Below, in pieces: positions 31,056-40,118 of a stretch of DNA of 64,000 bases; position 1 is the stretch's first letter; each line of letters begins with the position of its first letter. This stretch comes from Romanomermis culicivorax (lineage: Eukaryota; Nematoda; Enoplea; Mermithida; Mermithidae), in assembly GCA_963922205.1 (NCBI GenBank), contig CAWUHX010000267.1, positions 1 to 64,000 of the forward strand. Reading direction: 5' to 3'. Both the position numbers and the translations under genes were made by a program. A model generated the notes under the pieces. It made no database searches. It was given only the letters and a program-made list of their open reading frames with translations, and was not told the DNA's origin.

Positions 31056-32800
31056 ATGAAGTCGGAAGCTGATCTCCCTTCACAGATCGAGAACAAAGTC
31101 CAGGCAGCATTTGAGAATGCTCTTGGACCCCTCAACCAAAAGTTAGAGGCCATGAATGGTCGGAGGCACCCTCCCGTGTCCAGCTTTATGGCCCCTACCA
31201 CCTTCTCCGGTGCTTTTGGTGAGTCTATCACCGATTTTATGTCGCATCTTACTCGTTTCTTTACACTCCAGGGTGTAAGCGAAATGGATCATGCGTATAA
31301 AAGCGCCTTTCTGGAGTCATGCCTCACGGGTCCTGCTCTTGCCTCCTACCGGGACTTTAGCAGCAGCACTCCAATACCTACCCGCTACGAAGAGTTTACG
31401 GCTTTTCTACGGAGAGATTTTCCGGTAGGGCGCGACTCTGATCTGCATCAGCAGCTGATCCAAGATCGACTGCAGAAGCCGACAGAGTCCGCGATAGTCT
31501 ACCTTGAGCACCTCAAGAGACTATCCAGGGTAGCGTATCCAGATCTCGCGACGGATGTCCGAGATTCTATCATCAAACCTATCTTTCTGCGAGGACTGAA
31601 GCCGGTCCTCCGAGATAGTATCAAGTTTAGGGAGTTCACGACTCTTGAAGAGACACTCAAGGCAGCCTGTTACGCAGAATCCCAAATCTTTCGGGACGAG
31701 ATCCGGTACACTGCTCCATCTAACGCCGTTTTCTCTTCAGAACCTAAACACGCCGGATATAATCCCGATATGCCTAACAGAAGCGCAAACGGTCGTCAGA
31801 GCAACGCTCCAACGTCGTCATCCTCCGCCGATGAGATTCGCCGCTTGAAACAGGAAATGGCCAGGCTCACGGCCCACGTAGCGAAGCTCACGGCCCAGCA
31901 ACGTGCACCCGCGCCAATCCAACAGACGCCGCCTCCACAGCCGTCGACACCAAATCAGTCCGTCGGGCGACGCTTGTCGGGAGCACACCTTCAAACGTGC
32001 TCCTTCCACGGACTGTGTACACATAGCGACGCCGACTGCCGGGCCCAGCGTCCCACCGGTGCCGCTCCCGGTAACAACGCCGCTAACGATGGTCGCTGTT
32101 ATTTTTGCCGTACACGTGCCCACCCCACGGACCGATGTGATAGGCCATGCCCTCATTGTCGTCAAGTGCAAGTGCATCGATCAACTGCCTGTCCGCAGCG
32201 CAATCCGGCAAACACGGGTGAGAATGTCTACCAAGATACTGGTTATTCTTCCCAGGGGACAAATGTGTATCATCAAAGAAATGGTTATCACCCTCCCAAC
32301 GGGATAGGAAACCAATATCGGCAGCCCATACGCCGCAACAACGCCGTTGGGGCTACCGATGGCCCTCCTCATCCAGATCCTCTTGACCTGGATGATGAGG
32401 CACTTGCTGAACACCTGACAGATTCTTCACAACAGTGTTATCCTGTCTGCGTAATCAGTATTGGATTTTCAGTGGTCCAAGCAGCCCAGGTACCCGTACC
32501 GATAAATGTATCGGACATACCGCTGCCACCACCACCACCAAAGTATGCGATGCCAGTCACTCTGGACCCCTCGACGACACCGCAGTTTGTTGGCCACGCT
32601 AACATCCTCGCATCGTATCCCATTCCTAAAATTAAGACTGCCGAGCCAACTCCAGCCGCCAATACGACATCTTCGGCGCCACCGGCCCGCATCGTCCCTC
32701 CAGGACCACCGCCTTCGATCCCCACGGATTCGGCTACGGAAGTCCTCGACCAGGTCGAGCCCATGAATTTGTCAGGTATACTACCTTCTTCTTCAGGTGA
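31056..32800 (+). CDS. gag: gag polyprotein, copy 1
   Basis: The reading frame from ATG 31,056 encodes a Ty3/gypsy Gag. Residues about 45-210 hold the capsid-like retrotransposon-gag domain, with AFGESITDFMSHLTRFF and a run of alternating hydrophobic helices ending near AACYAESQIF. A helical linker (about 255-285, EIRRLKQEMARLTAHVAKL) follows. Then come three zinc knuckles: CSFHGLCTHSDADC (codon 315; C-x2-H-x4-H-x4-C), CYFCRTRAHPTDRC (codon 348; classical CCHC) and CPHCRQVQVHRSTAC. After about codon 570 the open frame becomes Ser/Arg/Pro-rich and is probably not translated as Gag; the 248-codon frame looks more protein-like there. The frame formally stays open to TGA at 33,813. Gag packages the element RNA and forms the particle. 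Confidence 0.85.
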
Positions 32801-32851
32801 TCCTCGAGTAGGAACCAGAAATCTATCTCAGTCCACGACTCTATCGATTTC

Positions 32852-33598
32852 TTGTTCACAGCGCCATCGCCCGTCCAAGATGGGATGTTGGCCATCTGGT
32901 CAGTCGACCTGGCCAAGAAATACCCGCATTTGCCATGGACTCTGCTCAACGAGCCATCGCATGTGGAAGCGCTCACGGCCGCCGACGTCGTGCTTGCAGC
33001 ACCCGTCTCAATGCGACTCTTACGACCCGACGTCGCCCGACGGGCACTCGAGTTCATTGCCAATGGGACTATCACCATCTCGCCCATCGAGAAGTTCTTA
33101 TTGGACGGGGAGCCATCCTCGCCTTCAGTCAATGCCGTCCGCCGAGCAGTCGAACAGGCCAGTCCGATCCTCCTGCCTGCTGCCGCCGCAACATCACCGG
33201 CAGCAGCGCCACCTGTTGCCGCGATATCGCCAACGAAAATGGACATTACTGCTTCCTCGCCCCCGGCCAAGGAACCCGCAAATGATCCTACACCGCCGGC
33301 AACAGCCCAACATACATGGTCAGCAACAGCCCAAGTCAAATCGCCGGCACCAGCCCAAACGACATCTCCAACCGCTGCGACCAAGTCGCCCTTCGTCGAA
33401 CACATGGCCGTCGACGAGACGTTACGTCCGGTTAACGAAGATGTCAGCATCGTTGAGGAATCCCCGTTCCCAACGGCAGTCGCCCCACGGTCGCCAAAAA
33501 TCGATATCCTCCAGGAAATCCACCCGTGCGGTGGATTGGTCCTCGATTTCCCCGGCCAGGAACCAATCTGGTCCGACAGCGACGAAGAAGAAATCTGA
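32852..33598 (+). CDS. overlapping 248-codon ORF, Pro/Ala-rich with acidic tail
   Basis: In the -1 frame relative to gag, a 248-codon reading ends in TGA at 33,596-33,598. It has a structured first part (AIWSVDLAKKYPHLPW, then RRALEFIANGTITISP), a Pro/Ala/Thr-rich middle and an acidic end (DSDEEEI). The copy at 57,033-57,779 is also open. Comparing the two, 12 of about 25 base differences fall at third positions of this frame and all 12 are synonymous. This weakly favours this frame over the gag frame as the coding one. The nearest in-frame stop upstream is at 32,798, so it would need a frameshift after that point, splicing, or internal initiation (the listed start is TTG). It may be the real C-terminus of Gag or an accessory protein. 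Confidence 0.5.
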   Translation: MFTAPSPVQDGMLAIWSVDLAKKYPHLPWTLLNEPSHVEALTAADVVLAAPVSMRLLRPDVARRALEFIANGTITISPIEKFLLDGEPSSPSVNAVRRAVEQASPILLPAAAATSPAAAPPVAAISPTKMDITASSPPAKEPANDPTPPATAQHTWSATAQVKSPAPAQTTSPTAATKSPFVEHMAVDETLRPVNEDVSIVEESPFPTAVAPRSPKIDILQEIHPCGGLVLDFPGQEPIWSDSDEEEI

Positions 33599-38318: not shown

Positions 38319-38619
38319 GACCATCCTGTCGCGTACGCCAGCCGAGGGTTAACAGCGGCCGAGAAAAACTACTCCATTACAGAACTGGAGACTCTCACTG
38401 TTGTCCATTTCGTCAAGCACTTTCGACCATACCTCTTCCAGCACGAGGTGGTCGTTCAGACTGACCATACCGCGGTCAAAGCAGTGTTGGAGAAGCCTAA
38501 CCCCTCTGCTCGGATTGCTCGGTGGGGACTCGCGCTCGCCGAATTCAAACTTACAATTCGGCCGCGAAAAGGTCAGTCTAATGATAATGCAGACGCATTA
38601 TCACGCCTGCCGGATCCTA
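38319..38619 (+). pseudogene. RNase H remainder, copy 1, downstream of nonsense codon
   Basis: The frame after the TAA continues RNase H: YASRGLTAAEKNYSITELE (catalytic Glu block), then VVQTDHTAV (Asp), then the closing NADALSRL block (Asp). All expected acidic residues are present. With the stop, RNase H is split and integrase would not be made from the main frame without readthrough. Confidence 0.75.
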
Positions 38620-40118
38620 ACTCCCTCACCGGTCAGAGTATCGATGATACTCCCCTCTACAGACCTGAGGGGCATGTTATGATGATCACCGATGGTGCGC
38701 AGCACCTGGCGAGATCAAGAACCTTGACCGATGGTGTGCAGCATCTGGCGCGTTCAAGTAATTCAGCACCGATCACTGTTGGCGCGGAGCGCCCGGTACG
38801 ATCAGAGTCTTATGCCGAGATATCGGTTGGTGCGCAGCACCCCAACCTTTTCGCTGCTCAGCTGGAGGATCCGGAATTAGCCGACATCATTCGCTCCCTT
38901 AAGCCTCTGGGCGACCAGAATGGTGTGCGCGGCTACCATCTGTTGGATAACGTTCTTCAGAAATGGACAGGCGAGTCCAATAAGATCGTCATACCCCGAT
39001 CCATGGTTACTACCATTATCCGTGCCCATCATGATGACATCTTAGCTGGACACTTTGGTGCTAAACGTACTGCGCGGCTCATTGCTCGCAGATACCACTG
39101 GCCTTCCCTCAGTCAGGATGTCAAGTCCTTCTGTCAGCGGTGTGATCTTTGCCAACGGAATAAGCCCGCTCGACAGAAAACCACTGCGACCCTGAAACCT
39201 ATCACCATCACGGGACCGTTTCACCGGGTAGGTGTCGACTGTATGGGACCAATGACCACTAGCGAAGCTGGCAACCGTTTCATCGTAGTCTTTATCGACT
39301 ACTTTACGAAATGGGTCGAGGCTTTTGCTACTCCGGACATCACTGCGCACACCATAGCCCGGCTGTTTGTAACGCAAATTGTCTGCCGGCACGGGGCACC
39401 GCAGATTCTTCAGTCAGATCGTGGCACTGATTTCACATCAAAACTGATGACTGAAATCACTGCGATCTGCACAACGAAGAAAATCCACTCTACCGCCTAT
39501 CACCCGATGACCAACGGCCAAGTGGAAAGAGCTAATCAGACGCTAGCCACACGGCTACGTATGTATGTTCATCAAGGACATACCGATTGGGATGAACACC
39601 TACCATACGCTGTGTTTGCCGTCAATATCAGCATGAATGAGTCAACAGGGTACTCGCCCTTTGAACTCATGTACGGTCGCACACCCATGCTCCCTGTTGA
39701 TGCCGCGCTCTCATTCAACCCTCCGGCCCATATCATTAATGTTTCCTCATATGATATGGAGGTCAAACGTCATTTCACGAATGCGTTAACCCTAATCCAG
39801 AGTCGGATTGAGAAAGCACAGGAAGCCTATGCACGGTCGTACGACCGGAAGGCACATGATGTCTCGTACAAAGTAGGGGATCAGGTGCTCAAACTGCCCA
39901 CCTCCAGCAAACGTGGACTCACTCCTAAATTGCTGCCCATCTACGATGGACCCTACCTTGTAACAAGTGTGGCATATCCCAATGTCACACTTCGTCTCGA
40001 GATGAATCAGGAAGACACTGTACATGTCAACCAGCTTCGACTTTACGTGTCCCCTGAACAACCGAGTGAAGCAGAGGATACACCTCCCACTTCACAGGCA
40101 ACAGGTTCGGCACCCTAA
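38620..40118 (+). CDS. integrase, copy 1
   Basis: After a linker of short repeats (DGAQHLARS, DGVQHLARS) comes an HHCC zinc domain (His near 39,027-39,053; CQRCDLC at about 39,132). The catalytic core has Asp at 39,237 (VDCMGP), Asp at 39,417 (QSDRGTDF) and Glu at 39,525 (GQVERANQ), giving D-x59-D-x35-E, the canonical integrase spacing. The C-terminal part has YDGPYLVTSV, a GPY/F module typical of gypsy integrases, and ends at TAA 40,116-40,118. Integrase inserts the cDNA; the ATTC duplication is consistent with its 4-bp staggered cut. Open in the same frame as the upstream parts. Confidence 0.9.
38685..38850 (+). repeat. hairpin-coding micro-repeats in RNase H-integrase linker
   Basis: Four short palindromes fall within about 160 bases of coding sequence: GGTGCGCAGCACC (twice), GGTGTGCAGCATC and GGCGCGGAGCGCC. 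Each sits in a repeated peptide context (DGAQHLARS and relatives, GAERPVRS). The set is also present in copy 2 at about 62,870-63,030. Confidence 0.6.

Follow-up and report, generated by a model that had tools for sequence, protein, structure and literature searches.

A gag intron as a probable frame switch in a Gag-Env-Pol endogenous retrovirus of the nematode Romanomermis culicivorax

An endogenous retrovirus of a mermithid nematode

We analysed a window of 64,000 nt from the mermithid nematode Romanomermis culicivorax (contig CAWUHX010000267.1, positions 1 to 64,000), which contains a 16.3-kb retroelement whose envelope (env) region lies between gag and pol in a single frame and whose gag is interrupted by an 86-nt segment with the ends of an intron (Table 1). 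The element has the traits of Ty3/Gypsy (Metaviridae): long terminal repeats (LTRs) with TG..CA ends, a 4-bp target duplication and the pol order protease, reverse transcriptase, RNase H and integrase. Only 5 of 1,457 sites differ between the 5' and 3' LTRs, and the insertion is therefore young. When the host flanks are joined without the element, the reverse-transcriptase frame of a long interspersed nuclear element (LINE) is open again, recovering the empty site; this LINE lies on the minus strand, with flanks at 24,887-25,887 and 42,178-43,710. A first look across the genome with the env piece gave 3,821 candidates. These features mark the element as a recent insertion of a high-copy, Ty3/Gypsy-like endogenous retrovirus family of R. 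culicivorax.

Table 1 Features of the element and of its second copy in the window. Slashes mark the putative splice sites; frame 0 is that of the ATG at 31,056.
Feature	Position	Strand	Description
Target-site duplication, left copy	25,884-25,887		ATTC, 4 bp
5' LTR	25,888-27,344	+	1,457 nt, TG..CA ends, 8-bp terminal inverted repeat TGTCACAT
Primer-binding-site position	27,345-27,362	+	TGG.., directly after LTR
Leader	27,363-31,055	+	3.7 kb; open reading frames of at most 115 aa on + strand
gag exon 1	31,056-32,775	+	Frame 0, dN/dS 0.35 (0.27-0.46)
Putative intron	32,776-32,861	+	86 nt, AG/GTATAC...TTCACAG/C; readable in frame 0 too
Frame-0 linker of Gag-Env-Pol frame	32,776-33,599	+	Stop-free in copy 1 and 6/15 sister loci
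gag exon 2, Gag C-terminal domain	32,862-33,598	+	Frame 2, ends at TGA 33,596-33,598
First hydrophobic segment	33,636-33,731	+	Putative internal signal peptide or signal anchor
Env ectodomain	33,732-35,267	+	Broken in window copy by stops 33,813 and 35,061
Transmembrane segment	35,268-35,345	+	Predicted from hydrophobicity
Protease-like stretch 1	35,400-35,900	+	DTG 35,556, LILGLDF 35,811; directly behind membrane anchor
Retropepsin 2	36,399-36,899	+	DTG 36,552; gag-asp_proteas 2.8e-08
Reverse transcriptase core	37,488-37,970	+	RVT_1 2.2e-34
RNase H	38,157-38,546	+	Pieces flank stop 38,316; second piece below cut-off
Integrase	38,991-39,506	+	H2C2 1.9e-22, rve core 9.2e-09
Stop of long frame	40,116-40,118	+	Closes frame 0
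3' LTR	40,717-42,173	+	1,457 nt
Target-site duplication, right copy	42,174-42,177		ATTC, 4 bp
Copy 2	56,774-64,000	+	Without matching 5' part; runs past window end

One frame spans gag, env and pol in two lineages

In the complete copy (copy 1), frame 0 runs from the ATG at 31,056 to the terminal stop and is closed solely at 33,813, 35,061 and 38,316, as an earlier note made from this sequence had reported with the right coordinates. Copy 2, which is 94.9% identical to 32,593-39,818 of copy 1, has no stop at the three matching codons and is broken at sites of its own, by stops matching 35,067 and 36,183 and by a 1-nt insertion matching 34,669; here, too, the note had been accurate. Its further suggestion, that the ancestral frame was fully open, is borne out by frame length across the genome. 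Of the 101 scored env copies, 60 lie in a frame that is open for 3,084-3,100 codons between stops, and the frame of the window copy would be 3,074 codons if its stops were removed. A search with the env piece of genomic copy L050 covered a diverged sister subfamily, in which 15 of 150 scored copies have an open frame of 3,014-3,018 codons. Only the best-scoring copies were considered (the best 101 of 3,821 candidates for the window subfamily and the best 150 of 3,080 for the sister), so both samples lean toward intact copies, and it is by their length that we take these frames to run from gag to integrase.

Direct alignment of 31,056-36,500 in 36 copies, namely the window copy and 35 others, revealed no frame-0 stop in 20 of them (indels not counted); a further four of the 40 copies (L032, L034, L038 and L046) had been dropped with unalignable 5' halves. 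New stops were fewer than expected in env (2 observed, 6.4 expected) and after env (2 observed, 9.1 expected). In the copies examined there were no fixed stops or frame changes between gag, env and pol, and the envelope part was not an insertion confined to the two copies in the window, either of which the earlier note had held would speak against its reading. As judged from these copies, the long frame is real, is common to two diverged lineages and is not a product of chance.

Natural copies imply splicing within gag

The first exon of gag resembles the Ty3-type capsid PF19259 (6.2e-06; 26.2 bits, below the Pfam cut-off of 29.1). A search with P0004 returned an open frame of 805 aa in 2 of the 150 scored copies, L050 and L051, and one of 200-288 aa in the other 148. 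What these two copies are missing is precisely the 86-nt GT..AG segment behind exon 1, and its absence is the sole gap over 1,415 nt aligned to the intron-bearing copy L062, to which L051 is 98.0% and L050 95.8% identical. Because two natural copies are precisely without it, the segment appears to be spliced; both diverged subfamilies carry it, so the simple reading is that it was lost by reverse transcription of spliced RNA. The copies thus imply that the 86-nt segment is an intron spliced in vivo and that the spliced RNA is sometimes reverse-transcribed. L050 and L051 differ from each other at 121 of 3,389 sites and may go back to one event or two. Two gene models, P0005 and P0013, both computed predictions, likewise pass from the Gag frame directly into frame 2.

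The segment is 86 nt long in all 36 window-subfamily copies and in 14 of 16 sister loci, the other two having 72 and 82 nt; in one sister locus with 86 nt (L063) the base beside the donor is changed. Among the four dropped copies it measures 86 nt in L032, L034 and L046 and 167 nt in L038, where the alignment is unreliable. Removal of the intron moves Gag to frame 2, where it continues for about 245 aa to a TGA. All 36 copies have this TGA, as do the 12 sister loci listed (in L057 out of register with the Gag frame; L053 and L063, which stop earlier, are outside the 12). The exon 2 product is conserved and acidic-tailed, and its 11 homologues in the protein collection are all from R. culicivorax. 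An additional intron in the leader was considered and found unsupported, as one intron-less copy retains the leader sequence.

Two frames share the 3' part of gag

We calculated the ratio of non-synonymous to synonymous changes (dN/dS) segment by segment in the 36 aligned copies. In the overlap (32,862-33,595) it was 0.28 (0.20-0.40) in frame 2, compared with 1.43 (1.04-2.02) for frame 0 and 1.40 for frame 1. The intron read in frame 0 gave an uncertain 0.26 (0.07-1.05). Frame 0 values were low again in env (0.205 at 33,816-35,060, indicating purifying selection on Env) and in the adjoining stretch (0.21 at 35,064-36,590). By segment, selection therefore acts first on frame 0, then on frame 2 and then on frame 0 again. 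The earlier note's description of one continuous coding frame stands in that the frame is open throughout, but the overlap is selected in frame 2, which is reached through the 86-nt intron.

Frame 0 nonetheless stays open across the overlap in diverged copies beyond what the Gag protein alone would predict. Copy 1 and the sister copy L066 differ at 216 of 591 nt (36%) in the overlap, with 41% of residues differing in frame 2 and 68% in frame 0, yet neither has a frame-0 stop. For an unchanged protein and each copy's own codon usage, the chance of a stop-free frame 0 was 0.010 for copy 1 and 0.002-0.009 for L062, L066, L067, L068 and L069 (0.009-0.019 with pooled usage); the corresponding chance for frame 1 in copy 1, L062 and L066-L069 was 0.06-0.59. 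New stops in the overlap numbered 7 in frame 0 (12.3 expected), 12 in frame 1 (8.7 expected) and 3 in frame 2 (6.6 expected). A neutral simulation of stop gain was set aside, as it predicted too many stops in the control frame.

Copy 1 and the 8 sister loci listed share no env-frame ATG between the donor and the signal segment, and L068 has none at all across the 244 codons between these points. Since no start codon is common to both subfamilies, Env is unlikely to start alone. No -1 slip site was seen in the overlap by eye. Taken with the openness of frame 0 and the stop counts, the lack of a common start codon suggests that frame 0 has been preserved as an open bridge in which the residues themselves are of little consequence.

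Envelope and protease regions

The signal peptide, glycosylated cysteine-rich ectodomain and transmembrane segment that the earlier note had placed between Gag and protease were recovered as hydrophobic segments, cysteines and sequons, and the profile search against viral glycoproteins that it had proposed gave a match to Monjiviricetes_fusion (PF24664) at 34,512-34,946 (2.5e-14; 52.6 bits against a cut-off of 27; 145 of 410 residues). The 415-aa piece between the first two stops of the window copy has 15 cysteines, 14 of which are kept in 36 of 36 copies, and 8 sequons, each kept in 34-36 of 36. Its structure model, with a predicted local distance difference test (pLDDT) score of 34.7, was too low in confidence to judge the fold. 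Searches of phage records and IMG/VR returned no env relative. An env relative from another source, P0002, has about 270 in-frame residues ahead of the signal segment, which would fit an N-terminal fusion of Env there too.

A protease-like stretch and, behind it, a recognised protease lie between the membrane anchor and reverse transcriptase. In the first, DTG is kept in 36 of 36 copies and LILGLDF in 35 of 36, and dN/dS is about 0.15. Its Pfam match (0.0053) is below all curated cut-offs, its hhalign alignment to the second protease is weak, and its structure model (pLDDT 39.3) is too low for use; on the sequence, we regard it as protease-like and its assignment as a retropepsin as tentative. 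A protein search with the region from the anchor through both proteases found no relatives.

A candidate frame switch and its alternatives

We consider it probable that the element encodes Gag, Env and Pol in one frame and uses the 86-nt gag intron as a frame switch, unspliced RNA giving Gag-Env-Pol and spliced RNA giving Gag. Spliced mRNA would yield abundant Gag ending in the frame-2 C terminus, and unspliced (genomic) RNA, read through the intron and the overprinted stretch, would yield Gag-Env-Pol, some 3,000 residues long, as a minor product. In this product, the first hydrophobic segment would direct the Env ectodomain to the lumen, whereupon the second would return the chain, leaving Gag and Pol cytosolic; two such segments would make an Env between Gag and Pol topologically workable. 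One molecule would then carry capsid, envelope and enzymes to the budding site, where the protease or proteases behind the anchor would cleave the chain. On balance, we also lean towards dual coding, in which the intron selects between the Gag end and a 740-nt run-through to a two-pass Env and the enzymes, and intron retention would set the ratio of Gag to Gag-Env-Pol. The earlier note had offered a very large polyprotein with a membrane protein in its middle or an unrecognised splicing scheme; the evidence favours both at once, so its either-or falls away and its interpretation as a whole is partly supported.

Several observations weigh against the intron switch. The openness of near-identical copies is mostly inherited, which leaves two lineages, rather than 75 copies, as independent evidence. 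New stops are not depleted in gag exon 1 (10 observed, 9.4 expected), and dN/dS at the start of env (33,600-33,812) is an uncertain 0.60 (0.22-1.29). Within the overlap, the frame-0 residues are not conserved, and 8 of 36 copies have stops in frame 0, compared with 2 of 36 in frame 2; across intron and overlap, 9 of 15 sister loci have frame-0 stops. In the intron-less copies frame 0 no longer connects to Gag, yet it contains almost as few stops (none in L051, one in L050), and the control frame of L050 also had a low chance of being open (0.039). The overlap has five env-frame ATGs that 35-36 of the 36 window-subfamily copies retain, and internal starts would be possible there. Finally, 7 of the 150 sister copies have a frame of 2,264-2,268 codons and are perhaps a multiplied lineage in which a stop in the overlap interrupts the link between Gag and Env.

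Such a lineage would suit synthesis of Env-Pol from spliced RNA by ribosomes that shift by +1 at the Gag TGA (33,596), with the openness of frame 0 being incidental. Passing from frame 2 into frame 0 takes a shift of precisely +1, this kind of shift is described as common among Gypsy elements (PMC3735527), and both the invariant TGA and the lack of an env ATG common to the subfamilies are as this explanation would have them. We nevertheless judge it unlikely, because members of two diverged subfamilies lack frame-0 stops beyond the prediction from codon usage, and because the codon before the stop is ATC in the window and GAA in 11 of the 12 sister loci, so that no slip site common to both is seen. 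The short env frames of the intron-less copies (470 and 475 codons) argue weakly in the same direction, as their breakage may have other causes. The unconstrained frame-0 residues of the overlap, the stops in sister loci and the five retained ATGs would instead suit a continuous frame that is the functionless legacy of a few recent masters, with Env-Pol translated from a separate splice product or from an internally initiated mRNA, and a donor-like AGGTGAGT in the 5' LTR (26,819-26,826) is in keeping with this. It appears quite improbable, given that members of both subfamilies are stop-free in frame 0 despite differing at 36% of sites, that they share no env-frame start codon, that the sister loci listed do not conserve the acceptor-like motif that lies near the start of env, and that no fixed stop separates env from pol in the copies counted. 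Copies without the 86-nt segment do not by themselves demonstrate an RNA, and the segment might be no intron at all, its absence reflecting a chance deletion. We give this very little credence: the ends are exactly GT..AG, donor and acceptor are conserved, the length is the same in two diverged subfamilies, and without the segment Gag has an open frame of 805 aa, the second part of which corresponds to the selected frame.

Relation to known elements

The earlier note's statement that env-bearing elements place env after pol does not hold for Burro, a giant Gypsy-like element of planarians with a mononegavirus-like env in frame between gag and protease, which was called the first such case (PMC6431247). 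Burro and the Romanomermis element share this position and a single open reading frame; Burro is larger, at more than 30 kb with an ORF1 of 4,873 aa, and carries accessory domains (BIR, ankyrin, MATH, BCL2-like and dUTPase-like; PMC6431247). None of these was found above cut-off in Pfam scans of seven pieces of the long frame, a BH4 match inside reverse transcriptase being sub-threshold (0.0076; 16.4 bits against 20.5). The available account of Burro does not mention a gag intron or an overprinted Gag end (PMC6431247), and we liken the two elements by description, not by sequence.

The intron has its closest described parallel in BARE1 of barley (Copia superfamily), an element with otherwise one open reading frame in which alternative splicing of a 104-nt gag intron yields an RNA for Gag only (PMC3735527). 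A small gag intron whose removal changes the frame is present here too, as the natural copies indicate. In BARE1, however, the shift runs to a stop codon (PMC3735527), whereas here about 245 conserved Gag residues overprint the long frame, which also contains an envelope protein. Drosophila copia likewise obtains a Gag-only RNA by splicing of a single gag-pol frame, but 2,950 nt are removed, nearly all of pol, and the passages on it make no mention of env or dual coding; in Ogre, splicing takes place between open reading frames (PMC3735527). Atlas virus, a belpaovirus, comes from another nematode, a hookworm, and has its gag, pol and env joined in one polyprotein frame; its order is Gag-Pol-Env, its Env is class II and phlebovirus-like, and it has no introns (PMC9094657). 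Anakin, a mosquito element with a chuvirus glycoprotein, similarly represents capture of a negative-strand RNA virus glycoprotein by an LTR element, but on a BEL-Pao backbone and, as far as its available description goes, without an in-frame position between gag and pol (PMC7642597). We found no report on the Romanomermis element or on an intron frame switch combined with Gag-Env-Pol order in a literature search that most subscription papers lay outside. Thus, the in-frame env position of Burro and the gag-intron switch of BARE1 are already known, and we found no report of both combined within the sources covered.

Retroelements need much more Gag than enzymes, and Env normally comes from its own message (PMC3735527, PMC10309623). 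If our reading is true, one small intron and an overprinted stretch may solve both the ratio of Gag to enzymes and the supply of Env in an animal, and an envelope would be deliverable within a Gag-Pol chain, suggesting how an Env between Gag and Pol works topologically. The intron and dual coding are more interesting than the position of env alone. The element is also a tractable system, being a young, high-copy family with natural spliced copies in a host that is parasitic on mosquito larvae (PMC10879605).

Other features of the element and window

Rfam and tRNA scans gave no matches. The leader contains a run of 46 A (28,367-28,412) and, at 28,440-29,350, nine TGACGTC motifs, compared with four in the rest of the window. 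The strong donor-like AGGTGAGT recurs in the 3' LTR at 41,648-41,655, and no acceptor was identified for either. Elsewhere in the genome, G000:C31:1361535-1383317 holds four equal-score env matches 7,039 nt apart, as if a partial element were tandemly arrayed. The window also includes a second integrase-bearing retroelement fragment at 49,616-50,635 (H2C2 1.9e-16, rve 1.1e-10), a minus-strand open reading frame at 20,191-21,735 with a match to DUF1280 (7.7e-37), and a tandem array at 15,442-16,618 with 8.9 copies of a 133-nt unit.

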